Made by a program: the position numbers and the translations under genes
Source: a virus
DNA: 20,435 bases
Direction: 5' to 3' (one strand)
IMG/VR virus record: IMGVR_UViG_3300028610_000269
Location: 1 to 20,435 of that record
Shown: piece by piece, positions 2,205 to 18,138 of the stretch
Position numbering within the stretch: the first letter of the stretch is position 1
How the letters are laid out: every line of letters starts with the position of its first letter
The notes under the pieces: generated by a model
Told to the model about the DNA's origin: nothing
Database searches by the model: none
The model's input: only the letters and a program-made list of their open reading frames with translations

Positions 2205-2506
2205 TACATCGCCCACTCGAGGAAGGAATCGGACTCGTCCTGACCCTCGAGGACGGCAATCCTAGTTTCATGATCAGCCAGGGTTATACCGATCGCGGTA
2301 AGCGCAGCCGTCAGTCCGGTGATCGCGCTGATCGGATGTGCGTCTGGTGCGCTACGGCCAGGCAGGTCGTTGTGTTCAGTAGCAAGAAGCTCTATGAGTG
2401 TAGCGCCCGTCGCACCAAACTGACGCTGGAGATCGTCGACCAGGGCGCGCATCTTGTAGACATCGTAGTCCGGCTCAAACTGGATATTGGTAAAGGGAGC
2501 AGTCAT
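2204..2506 (-). CDS. Small tail protein with C-terminal coiled coil
   Basis: The chosen start is the ATG at 2506, which overlaps the upstream TGA as TGATG and gives 100 residues. Upstream is a GGGGAGG ribosome-binding site about 11 bases away. An in-frame ATG at 2563 would push 19 residues into the upstream gene and is less likely. The N-terminus is MTAPFTNIQFEPDYDVYKMR, followed by a helix (ALVDDLQRQFGATGATLIEL). The segment HPISAITGLTAALTAIG matches a motif common in phage tail-fibre and tail-tip proteins, and ADHETRIAVLEGQ looks like a short trimeric coiled coil. It follows the nozzle-like gene directly and may attach to that complex or to fibres; this is inference. Confidence 0.6.
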   Translation of the reverse strand: MTAPFTNIQFEPDYDVYKMRALVDDLQRQFGATGATLIELLATEHNDLPGRSAPDAHPISAITGLTAALTAIGITLADHETRIAVLEGQDESDSFLEWAM

Positions 2507-5148
2507 CAGTTGCCGCGCCTCCCCTTCCGCTTGAATTGTGCCTTCCACGTGCCCATGCGCCAATCGTCACCGAGTGCATCGGACTGGATCCGGAACGATA
2601 TCTGCCGGCCCTTGATCCGCGGGTTAACGAACGGCGTCGTCGAGTCCACGGTAAACGGACCTTTACTGACTACCTCGACACCACCGCTGGATGGATAGGC
2701 CTTGGCCGTCAGCGACAGATCGATCGAACCAACAAGCCTCTTGAAATCGGGAATCATCTTGCGCACGACCGCGTGGTAGGTGCCGTCGTCGACAGCCATG
2801 TCGTAGGTGTCGATAAACGACAGCATCGGCGTGATATTGTTTTCCGGATCGGCCTCGTCGACGCCGGTCTCGTGTATGAAAATCTTGCCGTCAAAGCTGC
2901 CGTATGGCTTCTGATTAAACAATGCCGAGCTATCGTGGAAAGCGCTGCGCTCGATCGTGCCGTAATCCCAGACCTTGTCGTAGTAGTTGAACTTGACGTA
3001 TCGATCATTGGCCTGCGCACCCTCTGCTGAATACACCCACCAGACTTCCGTGAATAGCTTGTTCACAGATGCGTAGGACTTCCGCCCCTGCTCCAGGTTG
3101 ATGTCATCGAAGACGGTATTGCGGACCTCGCACTCCATGACCCGGAGCACGCCGTCGTATATCAGGAAATCGTCCTCGCCCATGAAGTACATGATGCCGT
3201 TCACATCGATCGCAGCGTTTGGCCCGATGATCGTGACTGACTGTCCCAGGTGACGCAGCGAGAAAACAAACTCGCCTGAGATGAACGCCAGCGCATGCAG
3301 TGACTGGTCGGTCATCGTCAGGATGTCGCCACGCGATTCGACCGCGGTAATGATCTCAGATCCCACATCAAGCCGGAGATCGCCGGCCGTGTTCGTGGAC
3401 AACGGAGTCCAGTCGGTGAAGTCTTCCGAGCTTGCCCACCTGATCAACAGTGGATCCGGATCGCCAGGCGATGCAGCTGATCCTGTGCCGGCACCGAAGG
3501 CAATCACATGTCTGGCTGTCGGTGAGATCAGCATACGCTCGATGGTGTTCGGTGCCGTGGGAACCAGCACCGCCCTTACGTTCGGTCCATTGCTGCGGTC
3601 CCAGTGATACAGCGACCGGCCGTTCGGCGATGCGAGCAGGTCCTCGCCGAAATTATCCAGCGACCAGGTCCTGAGATTGCCTAAGACTCCGGCGCCAGCT
3701 ACAAAACTGCCAATGCCATATTTGCCGAAGCCATAGGCGCCGGTACCGTAGCCCAGGAGCGTCGTGGTGTTTTCCAAGCCGACCCCGATCTCATACTGAA
3801 AGTCGACAGTGCCTCCGCCAGAATCTGTCGATGTCGGCGGCACCTGGTGGCGAATGATGTACATGTCATCATCGACGATGAACTCGACTCGATACTCGCC
3901 ATCGATAGTAATTCCACCGACAGGATCCGCATTCTGGAAATGCACAAAGTTACCGACCCCAACCCCGTGGGCCGTGTCTGTGACCTGCACAAAGGTAGGA
4001 TCATCGCCACCATCTGGATCGAACGCCCCGGTGATGTCGGTATCGAATGGATCGATCAGGGTGCCTTCTTGAGCGAACGGAGTGATGTCGAACAGTTCGC
4101 TGTTGTTGACTAGGTAGAGCTTCAGATTGGTGCCAATCGCCAGCCACTTCTGGCTGTCCAGGCTGGACCAATCCCACAGCGCCCTGGCTACCCCGAGGTA
4201 GCAGGTCTGCACTATATTCTGGGCCGGCAGGATAACCAGGCCATCAGGGAATGCCGCCGGAGCCGCGATGGCAAAGTCCGTGACCGGCAAAATATCAAGC
4301 GAGGTGACGTTGGTCTGGTCGTTGTCACAGCCAGTCAACTGGAATGGCCGGATGTCGATATCGAGACCGTCGGCATCTTCAGGCAGCGACTGCGTGAGCA
4401 TGACCTCGGTGTCAGCCGCGATGTCGAGATTCAAAAACCGCACGACGTAGCTCTGGGTGTCGTTCCTGATGAAAGACTCAGCGGCATAGATGAATACGTT
4501 CGGCGTGCCGGCCTGGATGTTATCGATCAGCGGATCCCTCAGCGTCAGAACCGTCGCCCCCGTTTGATGATTGGCACCGAGAAAATTGATCTGCTCACCG
4601 GAATCTGTCAGCAATCGAACGATGCTTCCTCCGCGCAGGTAACTCGTCACCGCGGGCGAGACCTGGATCTGTTCAGAATCTGTGACGCCGCCAACGATCA
4701 CATCGCCGCCGCCGCCAAACTCTTCCGGGTAACTGATGATGAAGGCATCGCCGGCTGTGGCCGTGACCGCAGAATCCAGGTCGAACACATGCTCATCCTC
4801 GAGCGCGGTCGGATCATCGATGGTACGGCCGCCAAGACCACCGACCAAGGAATCATCGAACAGCCAGACCGGGTCCAGATCGAGGCAAGTCACCGCGGTA
4901 TCAAGAACGATCGTCGATGCCCCGGCGGAGTAGCCGGCGTTCGCGGTGCGCTGCTGACTTAGATCCTCGCTGATGCCGTCGACCTCAGTGCCCAGCGAAT
5001 TGAGTATCCAACCGCCGAGCTTCTGCGGCAAGCGCTTGCGAAATCGAATCTTGTTGCCGTCCTTGAATCGACCTACAGCACCGGCATCGGTCTCCTCGGT
5101 CATGATACCGGGGAGAAGCTCGAGCGGAATGTCAGGCAGTCGGCTCAT
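2506..5148 (-). CDS. Large tail nozzle/stabilization-like protein (P22 gp10/T7 gp12 type)
   Basis: This 880-residue protein is the largest gene in the window. It starts at an ATG that overlaps the upstream TAA as TAATG. The N-terminus carries IPLELLPGIMTEETDAGAVG followed by a KIRFRKRLPQKLGGW segment (about residues 7-46). I associate that opening with the large tail stabilization or nozzle proteins of podovirus-like aquatic phages. A glycine/tyrosine run, GYGTGAYGFGKYGIG, lies near residues 463-480. A VWWVYSAEGAQANDRYVKFN segment near 700-725 precedes KVWDYGTIERSAFHDSSALF. The middle is strand-rich and compatible with a beta-propeller, as in P22 gp10 and T7 gp12. Such proteins extend the short tail below the portal and adaptor. 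Position after the fibre gene fits, but the exact family needs a profile search. Confidence 0.68.
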   Translation of the reverse strand: MSRLPDIPLELLPGIMTEETDAGAVGRFKDGNKIRFRKRLPQKLGGWILNSLGTEVDGISEDLSQQRTANAGYSAGASTIVLDTAVTCLDLDPVWLFDDSLVGGLGGRTIDDPTALEDEHVFDLDSAVTATAGDAFIISYPEEFGGGGDVIVGGVTDSEQIQVSPAVTSYLRGGSIVRLLTDSGEQINFLGANHQTGATVLTLRDPLIDNIQAGTPNVFIYAAESFIRNDTQSYVVRFLNLDIAADTEVMLTQSLPEDADGLDIDIRPFQLTGCDNDQTNVTSLDILPVTDFAIAAPAAFPDGLVILPAQNIVQTCYLGVARALWDWSSLDSQKWLAIGTNLKLYLVNNSELFDITPFAQEGTLIDPFDTDITGAFDPDGGDDPTFVQVTDTAHGVGVGNFVHFQNADPVGGITIDGEYRVEFIVDDDMYIIRHQVPPTSTDSGGGTVDFQYEIGVGLENTTTLLGYGTGAYGFGKYGIGSFVAGAGVLGNLRTWSLDNFGEDLLASPNGRSLYHWDRSNGPNVRAVLVPTAPNTIERMLISPTARHVIAFGAGTGSAASPGDPDPLLIRWASSEDFTDWTPLSTNTAGDLRLDVGSEIITAVESRGDILTMTDQSLHALAFISGEFVFSLRHLGQSVTIIGPNAAIDVNGIMYFMGEDDFLIYDGVLRVMECEVRNTVFDDINLEQGRKSYASVNKLFTEVWWVYSAEGAQANDRYVKFNYYDKVWDYGTIERSAFHDSSALFNQKPYGSFDGKIFIHETGVDEADPENNITPMLSFIDTYDMAVDDGTYHAVVRKMIPDFKRLVGSIDLSLTAKAYPSSGGVEVVSKGPFTVDSTTPFVNPRIKGRQISFRIQSDALGDDWRMGTWKAQFKRKGRRGN

Positions 5149-5537
5149 TAAGGCTTCTTGGCGTTGCTTCTGACGGCTGCGGTTACCAGGCCAAGATTCA
5201 GATCAGGAAGTCCGGCGTTCTGACGTACAGCGTTTAGCTCGTCGACCATGACTTTGATCATGGACTGGATGCCAGCATTGTTATCGACGTCTCTTTCCCT
5301 GAATTCCTCATCGATGAAATCGTCAAAAAAATCGCTATATTGCTGCTCGATGTTCGCTTGATCTGCCACGAAATCCACGAGCTTCTGATCCATTGTCGGC
5401 TGATCGATAAAAGTATCCAGCACCCCAAACTCGTTAGTCGTTGGCTCGAATTCATGGTATCCGCTGAAATTGCCAATGAACCAATTAAAGGCATCTCTCT
5501 TTGCGCCTACCGGTAGTACAACTTTTCTCCTGCTCAT
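5148..5537 (-). CDS. Hypothetical phage structural-region protein
   Basis: This 129-residue protein starts at an ATG with an ATGA overlap to the fibre gene and ends in a TAATG overlap with the nozzle-like gene. The N-terminus MSRRKVVLPVGAKRDAFNWF is basic, followed by an acidic stretch with MDQKLVDFVADQANIEQQYS and DFFDDFIDEEFRERDVDN (about residues 49-86). A helix (IQSMIKVMVDELNAVRQNAG) and a short C-terminus (SNAKKP) follow. It is mostly alpha-helical in appearance and has no membrane segment or recognisable domain. I do not recognise the family. A small assembly factor or fibre/nozzle connector is possible from its position. Confidence 0.55.
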   Translation of the reverse strand: MSRRKVVLPVGAKRDAFNWFIGNFSGYHEFEPTTNEFGVLDTFIDQPTMDQKLVDFVADQANIEQQYSDFFDDFIDEEFRERDVDNNAGIQSMIKVMVDELNAVRQNAGLPDLNLGLVTAAVRSNAKKP

Positions 5538-6865
5538 CCCAGCACCCTCATTTCTGCCCAGATTCCGTTCGGTGGTATATCTCGAAAACCTGCCTGCGCC
5601 AGCACCATGATCTCTATGAAATCATCGCCATCGACAAAGATCGATCCGGAATACCATCCCTGCATCCCGGCCTGACCTGACGCATTACCAGACTGTTGAG
5701 TACCACCACCTTGCGCGCCTGAGTCCCACGGTATCCATCCTGGATCGCTCCTGTTGTGCGTCACGACGAATACAGAATCGACAGCACCATTGACGACGCC
5801 GTTTTTGCGCAGACGAACATGGCCAAGACCTGCTTGAGCGTTGCTCACTTCATCATCCATCCTGTAGCCGATGATGAACTCGACAGCACTGACCCCTGAA
5901 GAAGGAATGGTGAAGCGAGTATTGTTCACCGAATTGTCGTGGTAATTGTTGGTGTCGAAGACTTCCATATTAAAATCGACAGCTACTTCTCCAACAGCAT
6001 TACCAGAACCGGAACCATCACCTGGGCCTGGAGGAGGTGACTGACCGATATCAGGTAAATCGTTTCTTGGAAAACAAAGAGCCGCAGACTTGAAAACCTT
6101 GCATCCTTCCAAGACAGTAATCGGCGCGGCTGCCAGGGTGGCCGGCGTGACTGCGCGTTCCGTATCAGTGCCGGCATCGACCTCGGCCTGGGTAGCCAGT
6201 TCGACGACACCGCGGCGGTCCTCTGTCGCTGTCCGGCCGTCAAGCTTGACTGGCGTGATCGCTCGCTCATCATCGGTCGCAACGTCTAAATTCGCTTCGG
6301 CTGTATTTGCGATCTCAATGATGCCGGTCAAGTCTTCTGTTGCCTGGCGGTCGTTGAGCTTCAGTGGCGTGATGATCTTGTCATCTAGTACGCCAGCATC
6401 GGTCTCGACCTGCGTGGCAACCTCGAGGATGCCGGCCTCGTCCTCTGTTGCTGAGGGAACGAAGCCAATCTCGAAAACATCATCGGCAACCTCGTCCACC
6501 ATCACCGCTACCCTGGTCCCAGCCCTTACGTCCAGGCCGGCATTGGCGACGGTTTTGATCGTCATCACAAAGGCGGTCTCGTTCGATATGATGTAGAGCT
6601 TGGAAGTACTCGGCACCTGGATCTCTTTGTCTTCGCCAGGAGCGCCGGTAAGCGCAATGATCGCGTTCCTCGCCTGATCAATAGCGCCGTTGTCTGCTTG
6701 AAGAATTACCGGGTTTGTGGCCGGCGTGACATCGAGATCCGTGCGAGCAGCAATCGCGTCCTCGATCAGATCGATGGCGCTCGCATTATTGATGAAGCCC
6801 CAGACATTCTGGTTGCCGCCAGTCTCCTGAAGTACGAGCCGTAGTAATGCTGTGAATTCGTCCAT
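5534..6865 (-). CDS. Tail fibre protein with three phage-fibre repeats
   Basis: This 443-residue protein starts at an ATG with a TAATG overlap. The N-terminal region (about 1-135), with QETGGNQNVWGFINNASAID, resembles the attachment domain of fibre proteins in aquatic phages. Residues about 139-245 hold three repeats of roughly 36 residues: ATEDEAGILEVATQVETDAG, ATEDLTGIIEIANTAEANLD and ATEDRRGVVELATQAEVDAG, each ending near ITPLKL, ITPVKL or VTPATL. This is the tail-fibre repeat of the Phage_fiber_2 type, which builds a trimeric shaft. A linker rich in proline, glycine and serine (about 272-290) leads to a C-terminal beta-rich domain of about 150 residues, probably the receptor-binding tip. 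That tip has a C1q/TNF-like jelly-roll look, but this is inferred. The role is host recognition on the virion surface. Confidence 0.82.
   Translation of the reverse strand: MDEFTALLRLVLQETGGNQNVWGFINNASAIDLIEDAIAARTDLDVTPATNPVILQADNGAIDQARNAIIALTGAPGEDKEIQVPSTSKLYIISNETAFVMTIKTVANAGLDVRAGTRVAVMVDEVADDVFEIGFVPSATEDEAGILEVATQVETDAGVLDDKIITPLKLNDRQATEDLTGIIEIANTAEANLDVATDDERAITPVKLDGRTATEDRRGVVELATQAEVDAGTDTERAVTPATLAAAPITVLEGCKVFKSAALCFPRNDLPDIGQSPPPGPGDGSGSGNAVGEVAVDFNMEVFDTNNYHDNSVNNTRFTIPSSGVSAVEFIIGYRMDDEVSNAQAGLGHVRLRKNGVVNGAVDSVFVVTHNRSDPGWIPWDSGAQGGGTQQSGNASGQAGMQGWYSGSIFVDGDDFIEIMVLAQAGFRDIPPNGIWAEMRVLG
6131..6451 (-). repeat. Three tandem tail-fibre repeats (about 36 residues each)
   Basis: This segment encodes residues about 139-245 of the fibre protein. 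Each unit begins ATED, has a G-I/V-hydrophobic-E core and an aspartate-rich turn, and closes with a T-P-x-x-L motif. The second and third units share the signature DxERA(I/V)TPxxL. The first differs at that point, with DDKIITPLKL. The nucleotide sequence of the units has diverged, so this is a protein repeat and not a recent DNA duplication. Confidence 0.8.
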
Positions 6866-7332
6866 TAACCTGATGTCCTTATGACGGCGAGAGTCGGGTC
6901 AGTCGGGTCCGGCCAACGCACAAAGAATGAGCCATTGTTCACAGCGATGGGCGATCCGAAATTGATGACCCACATGACCTTATTCTGCTGTGGTCCTGCT
7001 GTAGTGTTATAGATGACGGCGCCCTGCGCGGCCTCGTTGACAATTCCCCAGGTAGCCCCTGGCCCGAAGACCAGGTCAGCGAAATCGATTGCCGGCCGCT
7101 CGGGTTCTCCTGAAGTGTAGATGATCGTCTGTGTTAGTTGCTCGCCGCCGGCCGTATACCCGGTACCGACAAGCTCGCCAGTGATCGATGCCTGGTCATC
7201 GACGGTTACCGGATCGATATCCGCCAGCGTCGAGTACATGGCGAAGAACAGCACATCGTTCCGCACATCATGGTTGCCATCGATGCATTGATCGTTAAGG
7301 AACTGGAACGCTGTGCCGGTTTGAATGCTCAT
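6865..7332 (-). CDS. Small tail/virion structural protein
   Basis: This 155-residue protein begins MSIQTGTAFQFLNDQCIDGN. Its ATG overlaps the adaptor stop as ATGA, and its own stop overlaps the fibre start as TAATG. Segments such as LFFAMYSTLADIDP, ITGELVGTGYTAGGEQLTQT, ATWGIVNEAAQGAVIYNTTA and a closing FVRWPDPTDPTLAVIRTSG match a family common in aquatic phage tail modules. There a short tyrosine-containing strand, the GTGYTAGG turn and a GALIYN-type strand recur. Members are normally listed as structural or tail proteins without known function. The fold is probably a small beta-sandwich. Its position between adaptor and fibre suggests a tail-side or fibre-associated role. Confidence 0.65.
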   Translation of the reverse strand: MSIQTGTAFQFLNDQCIDGNHDVRNDVLFFAMYSTLADIDPVTVDDQASITGELVGTGYTAGGEQLTQTIIYTSGEPERPAIDFADLVFGPGATWGIVNEAAQGAVIYNTTAGPQQNKVMWVINFGSPIAVNNGSFFVRWPDPTDPTLAVIRTSG

Positions 7333-8705
7333 CCTGCCATGCTCACTGTCGTGGCCGCAGACTTGACCGGATCATAATCGCCACGCCACTGTCGCCGAAG
7401 TTCGATCTTGCGGGCCGGCATCAATTCAGAGTAGCTCTGCCGCCATGTATCAATGTCCGCAGGGTCGGAGATCAGGAACTCGTCAGAGGCAAGCAGGCAA
7501 GCGTACAAGAGCAGGTCGCCGGCATTGTCACCAAGCCAGGTGTTCTGGTTTGCAGGCGACAGGGCATCAGCCGTTTGAATCTGTCGCAGGTCGAATCCAT
7601 AGGCGATGTCCGGTGGCGGCACCAGGAAGAACTCGGTCTCGGTGAACTCGGCGTAGTATTGCGGCTGAGCCGTCAGAGACTCGTCAGGTTCGAAGTCAAG
7701 ACACCACTCGTAGGTCCTGCGTTCCAGGTAGACCTTTGGCCCACCCGAGGCAGAGTCTGGAAATGCCTGGGTCGGAGCCGTGAAATCAGCGGTCGTGTAT
7801 CGAGCCGTGCCGACCGTAAAGCGGACCTCATCGATAAACGCATCTGCATCTCCGATATTTGCTCCCGGACTTTGATTTCTTGAGCCGATGTTGATCGCTA
7901 CGACACCACTACCTCCAATCGTATCCCCTGTCACATCAACCGTGGCTCCGGACTTCACGCCATCGATATGCGCGAACAGATCATTTCCGAGACGAGTGAT
8001 AGCAACGTGTGACTGGACACCATTCGCGGCCATCGCTCCAAAGAACGGAAAATTATTGAAACTGGCCCCACCGTTGTCAGAGTAAGCAAACTGCAAAACT
8101 CCGTTGGCATTTAGGACTTCCCAATTACTGGTCCCGCTCGCGCCATCACCATGATTGATGTAGTCATGCCCACCGACCTGGTTCTGCGCGTTGACAAAGA
8201 ACTCAATCGTCCAATCCTGCTGACCTGTTACGAACGCAGGATCGTGAGGAATTTCGAGAAAGTCCAGTGGATCGCCGGTCGTTGCATCGAGAGATGCTGT
8301 GCCGAATTTGAATTCTGAAGTCGTTAAGTCTATGGCTCCCTGGAAATTCACCGTGTTATTGAGCGGAGATGCGTCGGTCGCAACTGTAGCGCCATCCACA
8401 CCGTCCAGATCCAACAACAGCACGACATCGGCAAAGTCATCGTCGGCACCGCCGGCACCCAGAAGATGCAGCGACCTGGTCCCCTGCCAGTTCGATGGCT
8501 TGATCGCCTGCACGTATTGATCCGGCGTCAACGAGCCGCTGATCACCCGGTCGAAGATTTCAAAGTTCAGGTCCGTTGTCAGGCGACTCTCGCCCATGGA
8601 GACGATCGTGCTCTGGTTGTCCACGAACTCCTCGCTGCTTTCCTCGAGCCAGTCATTGAGGGCCGCGATCAGGTCGTCGTAACTAAATGATGTCGATGAA
8701 GGCAT
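7329..8705 (-). CDS. SU10-like head-tail adaptor with an inserted LamG/concanavalin-like domain
   Basis: This is a 458-residue protein. Residues 1-83 (FSYDDLIAALNDWLEESSEE, then TIVSMGESRLTTDLNFEIFD) and 320-458 (VYLERRTYEWCLDFEP, TWLGDNAGDLLLYACLLASD, then ELMPARKIELRRQWRGDY) are the two halves of an adaptor of the phage SU10 gp6-like type, which forms the ring below the portal. In usual members the TRSL strand runs almost directly into the LERRTYE strand. Here about 235 residues (84-319) intervene. They begin FADVVLLLDLDGVDGATV and include WTIEFFVNAQNQ, HVAITRLGNDLFAHIDGV and AFIDEVRFTVGTARY, the successive strands of a LamG/concanavalin A-like jelly roll. The frame stays open throughout with no sign of frameshift. 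The insertion probably projects from the collar as an accessory or glycan-binding domain. The adaptor call is strong; the function of the inserted domain is inferred. Confidence 0.8.
   Translation of the reverse strand: MPSSTSFSYDDLIAALNDWLEESSEEFVDNQSTIVSMGESRLTTDLNFEIFDRVISGSLTPDQYVQAIKPSNWQGTRSLHLLGAGGADDDFADVVLLLDLDGVDGATVATDASPLNNTVNFQGAIDLTTSEFKFGTASLDATTGDPLDFLEIPHDPAFVTGQQDWTIEFFVNAQNQVGGHDYINHGDGASGTSNWEVLNANGVLQFAYSDNGGASFNNFPFFGAMAANGVQSHVAITRLGNDLFAHIDGVKSGATVDVTGDTIGGSGVVAINIGSRNQSPGANIGDADAFIDEVRFTVGTARYTTADFTAPTQAFPDSASGGPKVYLERRTYEWCLDFEPDESLTAQPQYYAEFTETEFFLVPPPDIAYGFDLRQIQTADALSPANQNTWLGDNAGDLLLYACLLASDEFLISDPADIDTWRQSYSELMPARKIELRRQWRGDYDPVKSAATTVSMAG
7749..8456 (-). other. 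LamG/concanavalin-like domain insertion inside the adaptor gene
   Basis: This is the part of the adaptor gene that encodes residues about 84-319. The boundaries are set by where the adaptor similarity stops (TRSLHL) and resumes (GGPKVYLERR), so they are accurate to perhaps ten residues. By eye the segment has several AT-richer stretches, for instance near 8040-8110, compared with the adaptor halves. That would fit a separate origin, but I did not compute it. Confidence 0.72.
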
Positions 8706-8714
8706 GTCAGATAC

Positions 8715-9440
8715 TCATGGTGTAAATGCAATCGCCGAAGCAGCGACTGCTGCCTGGGCCGCACTGAAGTGCGAATTATAGAACCGAACATTGTCGATGT
8801 GCGCTTCGCCGGTAGCCGCAGCACCGCGATACGCACCATCGAGAAACCTTGTGCCGATGATGAAATCGTTTCTCAGTGTTCTGCCTGCATTGCCTAAAAA
8901 TTCGTTCAAAGTTGAAAGGAAAACCGGCATGTTGATGTCCGGAGAAGCCGTTCCTTCCAGCACTCCATTGACATAGATCTGGCAGAGACCAGAAACATTC
9001 AGCGTTCCAAGGAGATGGTAGGTATCGTCCACGACCATGACCTTGGTGCCACGAGCTTCACCCAGCATGGAAGCTCGCTCAGAGATCACCTGGTAATTAT
9101 CGTTATCAGGCAAAATTGTGAAGGCAGGCACCAGGTCTGTCGCTACACCAGGGTTCGCCCAGTTGTCGAAGCCCAAATTAAAAATAGAGGTAGAGGTATT
9201 CACATGCGAATGAACGGCAGGCACGATCCGAGAGTCACCCCCAGCCACGCTTCGTGCGCCAATGGCTACCGGCTTAATCGCGTACTCGACCGTGAATCCC
9301 TGATCGTAAAGAATAGGCGCGGAAAGATTCTGCACCCTGGCTGCACCCACATACAAAATCGCTGCCCCAGTCATATCCGCTCGCAAGGATGGCTGGAATG
9401 TTGTAGGCGAGGCAAAGTAATCGAGATCGAAGTTTGGCAT
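8715..9440 (-). CDS. LamG/concanavalin-like virion protein
   Basis: This is a 241-residue protein with an ATG start immediately after the upstream stop and only a weak ribosome-binding site (purine-rich ACCGGGACCGGA). The strand FTVEYAIKP (about residues 49-57) corresponds to the FTIEaWV strand of LamG-type jelly rolls. TYHLLGTLNVSGLCQIYVNG (about 140-159) corresponds to the central strand pair with the IYVNG turn. EAHIDNVRFYNSHFSAAQAA (about 208-227) corresponds to the final strand and the following S-A-A helix. These are standard LamG/concanavalin A-like landmarks, although the whole is diverged. It lies directly upstream of the adaptor that has its own LamG insertion. Carbohydrate or receptor binding on the virion is plausible. 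No calcium-site residues can be confirmed by eye. Confidence 0.62.
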   Translation of the reverse strand: MPNFDLDYFASPTTFQPSLRADMTGAAILYVGAARVQNLSAPILYDQGFTVEYAIKPVAIGARSVAGGDSRIVPAVHSHVNTSTSIFNLGFDNWANPGVATDLVPAFTILPDNDNYQVISERASMLGEARGTKVMVVDDTYHLLGTLNVSGLCQIYVNGVLEGTASPDINMPVFLSTLNEFLGNAGRTLRNDFIIGTRFLDGAYRGAAATGEAHIDNVRFYNSHFSAAQAAVAASAIAFTP

Positions 9441-9827: not shown

Positions 9828-10646
9828 TCACCTCAGCATCCGACGCCTGGATCCACCACTACCTAAAGCTCGAGCCATGCCGCCTCTACGTGCCGGCGGT
9901 CCCTGCGTGCCACCAATCCGTGACGCGACAGACTGGCCTCGTGGCTGAGCAAGCGCTGCTGGTACGGCCGCTCTCGCTCTGCCTGCTGCCCCCGCCACGC
10001 CACCAGGTACACCACCAGCTGGCCTGGGCGCTGCTCCTCTTGCCGCTGCTTGTCTCATGGTCTGCGACCTGGCGGCTGCGGTTGCCTCCTGCAGAGCCGG
10101 CGTACCACCACCGCCCCGCGCAGCAAAACCGAAGGTGCCAGCGCCGGGCCGTGTTGGACCCACTACGCCCCCAGTGCCCCCTCGTGGCATTGGCTTGCCG
10201 GCAACCGTGCCAGCCATACCTCGCCGACCTGCCGGGCCACCCATCACTCCACCTCTCGGCATCACAGGACCTCCGGGGCCACCCGGCCTCACCGGACCTC
10301 GAGGACCTCGGGTACCACCAGTCATTGGAGTGCGGCCTGGTGAGGGGCGCAGCACTGGACCTGGCGCAGCTGGCGTCGTTGGCTTGCCGAGAAAACTGCG
10401 GGCTGTACTCCGCTGTGCCGCACCTGGCGTCCCCACTCCACCTCGAGGTCGGGTAAGGGGACCAGACGGCGCTTCTGGACCTGGCGGGCCAGGGTTGTAG
10501 CGCGTACCCCTGCTCCTGGCTTGCTGAAACGCTTTACCAAGCATGCCCGACATACCGCCTCCGGTTGGATTGGGATTCCCACCTCCACGCCTCGCCTGTG
10601 CGGCGTCGTGCATAAGATTCTTCATTGATCGTGACAGTGCCATCAT
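9828..10646 (-). CDS. Gly/Pro/Arg-rich, strongly basic disordered protein
   Basis: This is a protein of up to 272 residues. Two successive ATGs occur at 10646 and 10643. The GGGAGG ribosome-binding site is about 2 bases from the first and 5 from the second, so 10643 may be the true start. After a short helix (LSRSMKNLMHDAAQARRGG), almost the entire chain is glycine, proline, arginine and alanine, with stretches such as GPRGPVRPGGPGGPVMPRGG. I see only about three acidic residues, so it should be extremely basic. It has collagen-like triplets but no sustained Gly-X-Y register. The DNA is distinctly GC-richer than its neighbours. It sits between the gp4-like factor and the zinc-ribbon-like protein in a coupled series. 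Binding packaged DNA, or a flexible ejected protein, are possibilities; neither is shown by the sequence. Confidence 0.65.
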   Translation of the reverse strand: MMALSRSMKNLMHDAAQARRGGGNPNPTGGGMSGMLGKAFQQARSRGTRYNPGPPGPEAPSGPLTRPRGGVGTPGAAQRSTARSFLGKPTTPAAPGPVLRPSPGRTPMTGGTRGPRGPVRPGGPGGPVMPRGGVMGGPAGRRGMAGTVAGKPMPRGGTGGVVGPTRPGAGTFGFAARGGGGTPALQEATAAARSQTMRQAAARGAAPRPAGGVPGGVAGAAGRARAAVPAALAQPRGQSVASRIGGTQGPPARRGGMARALGSGGSRRRMLR

Positions 10647-11341
10647 GGCCTCCCGTGCAATCGTGAGTAGTTCGCGGACACGACAAGCGGTGCCGTATCC
10701 CTGTCTTCATCGTGGGCTAACGTCCATTCCTGGGTAGCCATCATTTGGAGCGCCTCCCACTTTGCCTCGTTGTATTTCACTGCCACCCTGGCAGCCAGTT
10801 CGGCAACGAAGGCCTCCTGGAATCTGAATGGAATATCGAGCGTGTTCTGTGCGTTGCCGACATCCTGCACCTGCTTGTAGACATTGAAGATCAGAATGTC
10901 GGTGTCGTTCTCGCCGGCCAGCCAGAAGAACACCTGGACGTTGTTGACGCCGATATCAGTATCCCGGCGCCGATCCACGAAGTATCTGTCCGGCCGCCCG
11001 ATCAGGTTCTTGTCATGCAGGATCAGGTAGTCCTCTCTGGAGATCGGATAGATCTCGGTGTCGACGCCGTTCCTGCGCACTACTGCGGTCTGCACCTCGA
11101 TGGTGCCAACCGGCAGATTAAAGCTCACCTCACCGGGCGTGACCGTGTGCTCAATTTGTTCGAACGTCCACTGCCGGTGTCCGCGGTTCGACCAGGATGA
11201 AAGCAGGAAGCCGGCCGATCGCCTGATCGAAATGATGTGCTCGCCCGTGATCTCCTGCAGGTTCATGCCGGCGCGCTCGACCGCCTCGTCACAGATCACC
11301 GCGAGGTTCGGGTCAAACAGAAATGAGCCTGTGCTTGCCAT
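10643..11341 (-). CDS. P22 gp4-like tail accessory factor (head completion)
   Basis: This 232-residue protein starts at an ATG two bases after the upstream TAG. The opening MASTGSFLFDPNLAVICDEA and a helix with ITGEHIISIRRSAGFLLSSW precede a strand pair, WTFEQIEHTVTPGEVSFNLP (about residues 58-77). Next are TAVVRRNGVDTEIYPISRED (about 85-104) and a GRPDRYFVDRR segment (about 115-125). The FFWLAGENDTDILIFNVYKQ strand (about 138-157) and the helical DIPFRFQEAFVAELAARVAV (about 168-187) complete the pattern. This is the layout of P22 gp4-like tail accessory factors, which bind under the portal ring after packaging and prepare it for the nozzle. Length fits related phage proteins. Its presence, with the P22-type portal and nozzle-like protein, supports a podovirus-like short-tail virion. 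Confidence 0.8.
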   Translation of the reverse strand: MASTGSFLFDPNLAVICDEAVERAGMNLQEITGEHIISIRRSAGFLLSSWSNRGHRQWTFEQIEHTVTPGEVSFNLPVGTIEVQTAVVRRNGVDTEIYPISREDYLILHDKNLIGRPDRYFVDRRRDTDIGVNNVQVFFWLAGENDTDILIFNVYKQVQDVGNAQNTLDIPFRFQEAFVAELAARVAVKYNEAKWEALQMMATQEWTLAHDEDRDTAPLVVSANYSRLHGRP

Positions 11342-11343
11342 GG

Positions 11344-12045
11344 CTATAACCTCAGTCCGCTTTCAGCGCCGATCGGGCCGTTGAGCGCCGTGCCATTGAC
11401 CTGACCTGGGCCAGAATCTTTTGTCAGTCCAGCCCCGGACGCTGTAACTCCAAAGCCAGTCTCTCTGAGTTGCCACCTGTGCAGCAAGCCATGGACAATG
11501 GCATCGACTCCCTGCAACGTCCACATGGTTTCGATCTCAGCGGCCGACAGGGCACGATCATAAAGTCGTACGTCGCCTACACGCGCATTGATCTCCTGCT
11601 CTGGGCTGGCAGTCCCATTGACAGCGGCAATGCTTGTCGCTTTCGCGCTGCTCACGACATTGCCTGTCTCCGCTGTCGTAGCATCCAGCGCTCCATCGAT
11701 GTAGATTCTTTTGTTCGCACCATCGTAGGTCGCTGCCACGAATCGCCAGCGAAAAAGCTGCGCGATGCTGGTATTGCCTGTCTGACGAACACCACCAGCC
11801 CCGGTGTTTAATACGAACTCTATGTCTGCTGGCCCGGTGCCGTCATATCCTAATGACCATTCCTTACCGGCATCAGCTATGGTGTCACCCTTACAAACAA
11901 TTGCCGTCCTATCAGGACCACGCTGGTTGAGACGAATCCAGAAGGTGATCGACATCGCTCCACTAAATGCCGGACTCAACGTACCCAGATCAATCACCTC
12001 ATCCTGTGCTGGGGGAGTATTGACACCTGGAAAGTCAGTAGACAT
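11344..12045 (-). CDS. LamG/concanavalin-like protein, possibly circularly permuted
   Basis: This is a 233-residue protein whose ATG overlaps the upstream stop as TAATG. The strand AMSITFWIRLNQRGPDRTAI (about residues 30-49) matches the ITFWvk strand of LamG domains. Then FRWRFVAATYDGANKRIYID (about 93-112) matches the wrfvaaTyDG...iYiDG pair, and ARVGDVRLYDRALSAAEIET (about 153-172) matches the closing strand and its S-A-A-E-I helix. The segment that normally opens such a domain (W-x-L-x-E...T-x-D-S-G...N-G-T) is missing from the N-terminus. A close match appears at the C-terminus instead: HRWQLRETGFGVTASG, then TKDSGPGQVNGTALNGP (about 191-224). This suggests a circular permutation or the remnant of a second domain. 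A surface or adhesive role is likely. Confidence 0.75.
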   Translation of the reverse strand: MSTDFPGVNTPPAQDEVIDLGTLSPAFSGAMSITFWIRLNQRGPDRTAIVCKGDTIADAGKEWSLGYDGTGPADIEFVLNTGAGGVRQTGNTSIAQLFRWRFVAATYDGANKRIYIDGALDATTAETGNVVSSAKATSIAAVNGTASPEQEINARVGDVRLYDRALSAAEIETMWTLQGVDAIVHGLLHRWQLRETGFGVTASGAGLTKDSGPGQVNGTALNGPIGAESGLRL

Positions 12046-12632: not shown

Positions 12633-13328
12633 TTAAGCTCCGTGCGAGGCTTGGACAACCTCGAGCGACACATCGTCACCGGTCAGCACTGCGTTCGATT
12701 TGAGCCTGATTGCCCTCACCGGAAACGCCAGGTTGCCTGTCACATCCGCGGTCACGTTCACCATCGTGTCGTGATCGTGGATGTCGATCGTCGGGAAGAA
12801 CACTTCAAACTCATTACGGAGCCACGAGCCAACCTGCGGCTGCGGGTCATTACCCCGGCGCGCCAGAATGTTGGACAGGGTCAGTTCAACCGTGAGATCG
12901 GCTGTCGCTCCACCGACGGCGATCCCCAGCGCTACCTGGAAATCAGTCCGCAGATAATCAAGTGGCAGCCAGTTGCTTGAGACGATATCGCCCGTACCGA
13001 CCGAGACCGTTCCTGCGGTAGTGTTGTCGATGACCCTGACCGCTGTCACCGTCGTGAAGGCCTGCACCGTGGATGCGGCGCCGGCATTCGCACCGACCAC
13101 CGCCTCGGAGCGGAAATTACCCTTCTCGTCGGTACCCTCGACCAGGAACACAGTGCCCGTTTCGTCGGCCACCGAAGTGATCACCACCTGCCGGCGAAAG
13201 TCCATGGTCGCCACGCCACCCGTGGCAAAGACGCCATTGATGTTTATCGGTAGCTGGTCCTGTGCTTGTGCAACGGCGTCGGGATCAGCAGCGGCGTAGG
13301 GCGAGATTGTTAATACTCTTGGCCTCAT
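12633..13328 (-). CDS. Head-region beta-rich structural protein, paralogue B
   Basis: This 231-residue protein starts at an ATG preceded by AGGAGGG. After VLTISPYAAADPDAVAQAQD comes a beta-rich core, QVVITSVADETGTVFLVEGT, then NFRSEAVVGANAGAASTVQA and FTTVTAVRVIDNTTAGTVSV (residues about 47-110). It has the same order and key residues as residues about 91-156 of the gene just upstream. The second half contains WLPLDYLRTDFQVALGIAVG and an ADLTVELTLSNIL strand. A C-terminal portion (FPTIDIHDHDTMVNVTADVT, then FPVRAIRLKSN) forms further strands. The family recurs directly after the capsid gene in aquatic phages. A decoration, spike or head-completion role is possible, but I cannot assign one. 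Confidence 0.68.
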   Translation of the reverse strand: MRPRVLTISPYAAADPDAVAQAQDQLPININGVFATGGVATMDFRRQVVITSVADETGTVFLVEGTDEKGNFRSEAVVGANAGAASTVQAFTTVTAVRVIDNTTAGTVSVGTGDIVSSNWLPLDYLRTDFQVALGIAVGGATADLTVELTLSNILARRGNDPQPQVGSWLRNEFEVFFPTIDIHDHDTMVNVTADVTGNLAFPVRAIRLKSNAVLTGDDVSLEVVQASHGA

Positions 13329-13353: not shown

Positions 13354-14118
13354 TTAGATCGCTGACGGTACGCGCTGTCTCGAGTCAGTGTAATTCTCGC
13401 CGAGTCCCTCTTTGGTGAGATCCGCCAGATAAGTCACCTCGATGTCTTCAGTTAAGGCAACAGGCGTATAGTCCGCTCGCTGATCCACACTGGTCGCCGT
13501 TTGCGCGGTGTCGTTGCCGTTGTCGTAACTGCCAGTAATCACGACGGTACTGCCCTCGACAGCAAGGTGGGTTTCCATCCTGTCCGTTGTAAAGCTGGCG
13601 AAGGTGGGTGTTGCTTTCCTTCTCAGCCCACGAGGGCCAGTTTCCTGTTGACCGACAGACACGACACCGGCTGTATCAGCATCGACGATGACGCGATCAA
13701 TCTTGGTGAAATGCTTAACACCTTCGCTCGTGGTCGTGTTCGGCCCAGTGATTTCTTCGGCCTGTGGTCTGCCGTTGGCATCACGACCAAGAATCGTGAA
13801 AGTTCTTGCCGATTCGTTGCCAGCTGCTGTGATCGACACACGACCGCAAAAACGGTTAATGCCGACGCCATCGACGGCGTCATTGCCATTGATCAGCAGG
13901 TCCTGGTCCGCTGTTCCAGCCGCTGGTGTCTGGTTCAGGCAGGTCGCTTCGTCGTCGCTTGAGCCTCCCTGAATAGCCTCGGTGACCATGACCGCGATGC
14001 GTATTCCTCGCAGGCTGTTGTCAAGATCACCCATCCCGAAATCTGGATCGGCAAGATTAAAGGCAACGCCTTCGCCAGCTAGTATCTGGTCCGCATGTGA
14101 AATTGTATGTTTACTCAT
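13354..14118 (-). CDS. Head-region beta-rich structural protein, paralogue A
   Basis: This is a 254-residue protein with a strong AAGGAGGG ribosome-binding site about 5 bases before its ATG. It is the first gene after the capsid hairpin. The N-terminal 80 residues differ from its downstream relative. The core GRVSITAAGNESARTFTILG, then AEEITGPNTTTSEGVKHFTK and IDRVIVDADTAGVVSVG (about residues 92-156) aligns with residues about 47-112 of the next gene. Shared positions are the VxIT, G-x-D-x-x-G, E-x-x-G-x-N, F-T, V-x-V and TAGxVSVG residues. The C-terminal part includes ASFTTDRMETHLAVEGSTVV and ends with a short charged tail. A head decoration or accessory capsid role is suggested by position only. 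Confidence 0.66.
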   Translation of the reverse strand: MSKHTISHADQILAGEGVAFNLADPDFGMGDLDNSLRGIRIAVMVTEAIQGGSSDDEATCLNQTPAAGTADQDLLINGNDAVDGVGINRFCGRVSITAAGNESARTFTILGRDANGRPQAEEITGPNTTTSEGVKHFTKIDRVIVDADTAGVVSVGQQETGPRGLRRKATPTFASFTTDRMETHLAVEGSTVVITGSYDNGNDTAQTATSVDQRADYTPVALTEDIEVTYLADLTKEGLGENYTDSRQRVPSAI

Positions 14119-17619: not shown

Positions 17620-18138
17620 TTAGATCGCTAACGTATCGAGTCTCTCCGGCTGATCTGTCTCGCCCCACATTTCGGTGTCGGTGATGAGTACGAACTGCAA
17701 GCCGTCAATCGTTCGAAAACGAGTGCCGGCATTCTTGTAGAACACTACCTTGTCGCCCAGCTTCGGGTTGTCCTCGCGCCTGAGCTTAAGCCCTGCACGA
17801 GTCTTCGCCTTATACGCCAGGCGCCCTATCGCAACTACCATCCCCGTGTACGTTAAGTACGCTTCGATGTCCCTGGTCTCTCGTGTCAACTGAAAACCCC
17901 ACGCGGTGGTTTCATCAGGTTCGCGAATCATGACCAGGCATCGCCAGTACAACGGTCTGAACGGTACATGCGGCGCCCGTGGCCTGCGCCACGGTCTCAG
18001 GAAATTAGACAGCCGAACTTGCCAGCGTCTCTGATCTGCGCACCATTCCGCGATTTCATCGTATACGGCATTAGCTGCCTTAACTTTCACGTCTCGTGCG
18101 ACGACCAGGTCAACGACTTGCTCAGCGGTTTCACTCAT
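17620..18138 (-). CDS. GroES-like co-chaperonin
   Basis: This 172-residue protein starts at an ATG with a GGAGGA ribosome-binding site about 9 bases upstream and an ATGA overlap to the preceding gene. Residues about 61-159 follow the GroES order. RPLYWRCLVMIREPDETTAW lines up with the GroES opening strand and the start of its mobile loop. TYTGMVVAIGRLAYK lines up with the central strand. LGDKVVFYKNAGTRF lines up with the GDIVIF strand, and GLQFVLITDTEMWG with the closing strand. GroES-like phage proteins (T4 gp31, RB49 CocO) cap host GroEL for capsid folding, and the position between portal and scaffold fits that. A 60-residue helical, basic N-terminal extension is absent from standard GroES. 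The GroEL-binding tripeptide is FQL in place of IVL. Confidence 0.78.
   Translation of the reverse strand: MSETAEQVVDLVVARDVKVKAANAVYDEIAEWCADQRRWQVRLSNFLRPWRRPRAPHVPFRPLYWRCLVMIREPDETTAWGFQLTRETRDIEAYLTYTGMVVAIGRLAYKAKTRAGLKLRREDNPKLGDKVVFYKNAGTRFRTIDGLQFVLITDTEMWGETDQPERLDTLAI

Follow-up and report, generated by a model that had tools for sequence, protein, structure and literature searches.

Gene Content of the Window

The stretch of viral DNA analyzed here (hereafter the window, 20,435 bases of a virus record) holds structural genes of a podovirus-like genome, encoded on the minus strand. Read along that strand, genes for a portal-like protein, a GroES-like protein, a scaffold-like protein, the capsid protein, small proteins, a LamG protein, a first adaptor and two small proteins are followed by genes for a second LamG protein, a second adaptor that bears a LamG insert, a 155-aa protein, a fiber-like protein, a small protein and the nozzle. 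The LamG-inserted adaptor is the ORF at 7329-8705(-) (458 aa); it sits after the capsid genes and before the fiber and nozzle genes, the latter order being shared with SU10 gp11 and with the phages that have podovirus adaptor rings. The tail-fiber-like protein (5534-6865, minus strand) and the nozzle or hub protein (2506-5148, minus strand; phrog_3287) were both identified with PHROGs profiles, and the homologue of the latter in DSL-LC04 is annotated as "stabilization protein." The nozzle of the window has no LamG domain.

The stand-alone LamG-like protein directly upstream of the inserted adaptor (8715-9440, minus strand) scored 25.3 bits against Laminin_G_3, below the cut-off of 27.6, and the other one (11344-12045, minus strand) scored 82.7 bits. 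A derivation of the insert from these genes was ruled out, the identities being 16-21% and the insert falling on a separate branch.

The first adaptor, a SU10_adaptor-like protein without insert (10643-11341, minus strand), matched PF24175 at 23.9 bits, below the cut-off, and has orthologues in the nearest cultured relatives, Roseobacter phage CRP-901 (gp54) and Pelagibacter phage HTVC023P (gp54), whose capsid proteins are 58% and 54% identical to that of the window. Both adaptor paralogues are conserved in these two phages, in the same order as in the window (gp54 and gp52 in CRP-901, gp54 and gp56 in HTVC023P). Profile comparison of the two paralogues found no sequence relation and the product of 10643-11341 had no match in the PDB, so that the only sign of their kinship is a weak shared Pfam match. 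The conservation of both paralogues in cultured relatives suggests a two-tier adaptor neck.

Two further features of the window were observed. The GroES-like co-chaperonin (17620-18138, minus strand; phrog_3188, 9.7e-7), located between the portal-like and capsid genes, has a 60-residue N-terminal extension, and the genes at 12633-13328 and 13354-14118 (minus strand) are adjacent paralogues (36% identity over 96 residues).

An SU10-Type Adaptor Split by a LamG Domain

The sequence-only reading had proposed that residues 84-319 of the ORF form a LamG-like jelly roll planted between two adaptor halves, and had called for a profile search of halves and insert and for a structure prediction of the monomer. 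Both analyses bore it out. The ORF matched SU10_adaptor (PF24175) in two stretches (2.8e-12, 47.9 bits, cut-off 27), and between them Laminin_G_3 (PF13385) matched residues 154-296 (30.3 bits, cut-off 27.6), so that adaptor and LamG models were both above cut-off. The inserts of other adaptors scored 29.7-46.3 bits against Laminin_G_3, and PHROGs profiles covered the entire insert of the window (residues 83-321, 6e-26). The AlphaFold2 model (44 sequences; mean pLDDT 81, pTM 0.57) showed helices at 9-46, strands at 52-58 and 73-82, a beta jelly roll at 94-298, the rest of a beta domain, and helices at 390-442. The pTM value means that the orientation of the LamG relative to the adaptor is loose in this model. 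Foldseek related the insert to ConA-like jelly rolls, for example 5hon_A (AbnA domain 4; target TM 0.70).

Three parts can thus be assigned along the gene, with the proposed limits of the insert retained. The N-terminal half (residues 1-83; 8457-8705, minus strand) comprises helices 9-20 and 25-46 and strands 52-58 and 73-82, the last being the first strand of a hairpin. The LamG/ConA-like insert follows in the hairpin turn (residues 84-319; 7749-8456, minus strand); the fold proper is somewhat shorter than this and extends from about residue 92 to 316. The C-terminal half (residues 320-458; 7332-7748, minus strand), assigned from Pfam and AlphaFold2, contains the second hairpin strand, the remainder of the beta domain, helices 390-442, and a C-tail modeled with low confidence (pLDDT <50). 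The SU10 adaptor consists of a helix bundle, a fiber-dock domain and an embracing loop (PMC9509320), and the C-tail is a possible embracing loop. Taken together, profiles and model identify the ORF as an SU10-type adaptor split by a LamG/ConA-like jelly roll, a domain of sugar-binding type and thus a candidate for glycan or calcium binding.

Compact Relatives and the Insertion Site

Among 42 related viral contigs, 22 carried the LamG insert, 18 had a compact adaptor with the same flanks but no insert, and 2 were cut off. The inserted adaptors came from 15 IMG datasets, were in frame and measured 447-459 aa where the gene was complete; an assembly chimera was ruled out by this recurrence. The compact adaptors had about 218-224 aa. 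The halves on either side of the site could be nearly the same in both forms: contigs L019, with LamG, and L026, without, were 89% identical in the N-terminal and 89% in the C-terminal half.

The compact relatives strengthened the assignment of the flanks. The adaptor of L026 matched SU10_adaptor in a single stretch (residues 8-204, 60.5 bits), and a profile of the compact family retrieved the SU10 adaptor 7z47 from the PDB (7e-9). With the compact model, Foldseek retrieved the podovirus adaptor rings of Pa223, VP1, SU10, GP4, KHP30, A4 and phicrAss001 (E 8e-8), with probability 1.00 and TM 0.49-0.57 against 7z47, 9nwi, 8zkk and 8jov, and the window protein retains the secondary structure of the compact form. 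Around the site, the compact sequence reads ...TRSLHIRDVGG-SGLRRYLERRTYE..., and the model has a strand at 75-82, a turn at 83-90 and a strand at 91-95. Because the junction falls within this strand-turn-strand unit, the LamG sits in the turn of a single beta-hairpin, in agreement with the earlier proposal that it separates strands which are normally adjacent. By position only, this hairpin would belong to the fiber-dock domain.

As to whether such an insertion might be standard for the family, the answer differed with the range of relatives. Within this uncultured clade it is common, being present in 22 of the 40 decidable contigs, but it was not found in the more distant relatives sampled, which were all compact. 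The CRP-901 and HTVC023P orthologues of the inserted adaptor (208 and 220 aa) are likewise without LamG. Scans with the adaptors of L018, L044 and L061 returned almost only known contigs, plus a new one, L109, a relative of L061. In the compact-type adaptor of L061 itself (710-1462 of that contig), the same hairpin turn is longer by about 28 residues.

Exchange of LamG Types by Recombination

Three LamG types were found in the adaptors: A (the window and L004-L017), B (L019-L022) and C (L018). They share only 26-36% identity, and the adaptor flanks around them are 70-95% identical. The DNA of the type A contig L010 and the type B contig L019 was 92% identical in the 416 bp that follow the insert and 83% identical in the 241 bp that precede it. 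Within the insert, no DNA similarity between them was detected, and the LamG proteins are 26% identical. In the core tree, L019 was sister to the compact L024 and L026 (94/95 support), and five changes of insert state were counted against a minimum of three, some of the branches being weakly supported.

In the adaptor gene of the window, informative sites favored L010 over L004 by 43:11 in codons 1-80 and by 45:14 in codons 376-458, and favored L004 by 159 to 28 in codons 81-318 (Fisher tests, p = 1e-18 and 4e-18). One switch point lies between codons 78 and 81 and the other between codons 328 and 331, each in a strand of the hairpin, and they delimit an L004-like segment (codons 81-328; 7722-8465, minus strand; p = 1e-18) in an otherwise L010-like gene. 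In codons 331-375 the signal is mixed, and the tract may therefore be patchy at its right edge. Third codon positions, at the synonymous level, showed the same shift, and other lineage pairs gave the same pattern. Judged by these sites, the window adaptor is a recombinant, with a LamG from one phage lineage and flanks from another, and across the adaptors compared the insert acts like a cassette that can be swapped.

Such traffic could be that of a neutral passenger gained by recombination, as frequent exchange and the frequent absence of the domain would allow. Against this, omega was 0.19-0.37 in the LamG and 0.11-0.18 in the adaptor core, values indicating that the LamG is under purifying selection; also, no contig spanning the domain had it truncated or out of frame, and three different LamG types occupy exactly the same site. 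A passenger is therefore very improbable.

LamG Domains in the Nozzle of Sister Phages

Contigs L031-L035, all with compact adaptors, carry a LamG inside the nozzle, after the residue matching F144 of the window nozzle (F144/G145, 4714-4719, minus strand; between YPEEF and GGGG in the alignment). The LamG of the L031 nozzle was 63% identical over 232 aa to that of the L019 adaptor (66.5% of the DNA over 639 bp), a similarity that ends at the domain edges, whereas type B and type A adaptor LamGs were only 26-32% identical to each other. A tree of the LamG domains placed those of type B adaptors inside the nozzle group (100/98 support); transfer between the two sites may have run in either direction. 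The nozzle LamG of L035 was distant (31-35%), with an unsure placement. The LamG was found in the adaptor only in 17 contigs, in the nozzle only in 5, in neither in 11 and in both in none; since all nozzle-plus contigs belong to one clade, a single event may account for this exclusivity. A scan with the nozzle LamG returned its own contigs only. Also, residues ~55-310 of the window nozzle form a domain of about 250 residues that is missing from the nozzles of L044 and L061, and the nozzle LamG of L031-L035 is nested in that domain, as an insertion within an insertion.

Comparison with Known Adaptors

The sequence-only reading had stated that no adaptor of this architecture was described. This holds for the LamG fold but not for adaptor decoration in general. 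SU10 gp11 (PF24175; 7z47) and the rings of Pa223, VP1, GP4, KHP30 and A4 have the same helices, beta domain and C-terminal helices, and differ from the window adaptor in that the latter has a 236-residue LamG in one hairpin. However, the dodecameric adaptor of the marine siphophage R4C is likewise decorated peripherally by a beta-sandwich domain (PMC10276861). The R4C decoration is Ig-like and belongs to none of the usual phage Ig families, and no domain exchange is noted in the accessible text of that report; the insert of the window is LamG by profile and fold, and thus not an Ig-like domain of the R4C kind. Phage Ig-like domains are likewise promiscuous and horizontally exchanged accessories of virion proteins (Fraser et al., 2006, via PMC13320782 and PMC10276861); they are carried by the major capsid protein and tail tube of Douge and by the T3 capsid, and for some of them binding to mucin or to the host surface was shown. 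The LamG domains described here differ from them in fold and in being internal, in the adaptor hairpin and in the nozzle.

Among 50,697 phage records searched for a LamG-bearing adaptor, none covered 80% of the query, the matches being either compact adaptors or tail or baseplate proteins with a LamG domain. Matches in Erythrobacter ZS04 and Rhizobium RHph that extended past the LamG proved to be large tail-region proteins near tail and lysis genes, not adaptors. A search of the mostly openly accessible literature found no LamG-bearing adaptor. Decorated adaptors are thus already known in kind, as are promiscuous domains on the virions of phages. As far as that literature and these records show, the novelty lies in LamG as the decoration, in its site inside a hairpin, in the series of relatives with an empty site, in the exchange tract, and in the use of the domain by adaptor and nozzle alike.

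Possible Role of the Neck LamG Domain

We consider it somewhat probable that the LamG is an accessory module that encircles the neck and binds surfaces multivalently. One beta-hairpin turn of an SU10-type adaptor, located in the beta domain that the N-terminal and C-terminal helices flank, would serve as the socket for an exchangeable LamG. If the adaptor is a dodecamer bridging portal and nozzle as in SU10, about twelve LamG domains would surround the neck, where they would bind polysaccharide, of the host surface or extracellular, weakly and multivalently. Such binding would assist reversible adsorption and would not replace the main receptor-binding fiber. Recombination in the conserved flanking strands would then swap the binding surface and leave the connector untouched. 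Other phages carry related LamG domains in their tail and baseplate proteins, and the Ig-like domains of phage Douge, which bind the host surface (PMC13033339), are a precedent for accessory binding domains. The existence of close relatives without LamG indicates that the domain is dispensable for the lineage.

The main rival to surface binding is a structural role, in which the LamG would pack on the capsid vertex or on a neighboring ring and stabilize the symmetry-mismatched neck. It owes this rank to R4C, a direct precedent, whose authors proposed a structural or stabilizing role for the adaptor Ig-like domain because it adjoins the head (PMC10276861). The LamG would also lie near the head, and purifying selection suits this role as well. 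However, LamG types that are 26-36% alike are interchangeable in near-identical adaptors, and many relatives have no LamG. Contact with the capsid in particular is disfavored, since phages with and without the LamG have major capsid proteins that are 85-99% identical and since a closely related LamG occurs in the nozzle, which is another protein and lies further along the tail. We therefore hold a structural role to be unlikely.

The LamG could also be a dock or spacer for the tail fiber or for the adjacent stand-alone LamG protein, extending the fiber-dock domain of the SU10 type. By its position, the insert would lie in the domain that holds the long fibers in SU10, T7 and KP32, and P22 and Sf6, which have no long fibers, have an adaptor without dock (PMC9509320). 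Stand-alone LamG genes are moreover adjacent to the adaptor gene. However, the N-terminal region of the fiber is alike with or without the LamG, and nearly identical between L019 (with) and L026 (without), so the LamG is probably not a fiber dock; nor does the upstream LamG gene depend on the insert, as it is present with the compact adaptors of L026-L029 and absent with the inserted ones of L010-L013, L018 and L019. A docking role is accordingly even less likely than a structural one.

Connectors are usually viewed as conserved plumbing. With the LamG swapped, absent or carried in a neighboring tail protein among related phages, the neck may be an evolvable contact surface in these uncultured short-tailed phages. 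A broader proposal is possible, although we regard it as doubtful: at least two tail-machine proteins, adaptor and nozzle, would form a general socket system that takes LamG domains of the same class, one at a time, in surface turns and exchanges them by recombination via conserved flanks. Next to the fibers, the connector would then be another rapidly evolving site at which surfaces are recognized. A swapped lectin-like domain in a connector, with relatives in which the site is empty or another site is used, is a natural experiment in adding binding surfaces with the DNA gate undamaged. The LamG series also offers a test of whether neck decorations aid adsorption or merely hold the neck together.

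Genes Upstream of the Adaptor

The slot upstream of the adaptor varies among the contigs (8715-9440 in the window, 1391-2968 in L004, 3670-5991 in L029). It is empty, or holds a lone LamG (241 aa) or a LamG with a longer C-terminal part (511-773 aa), the latter with weak beta-propeller/WD40 matches in the C-terminal part. The backbone genes of the window phage are closest to those of L010-L016, and its upstream LamG gene is as in the lineage of L004-L009 and L014.
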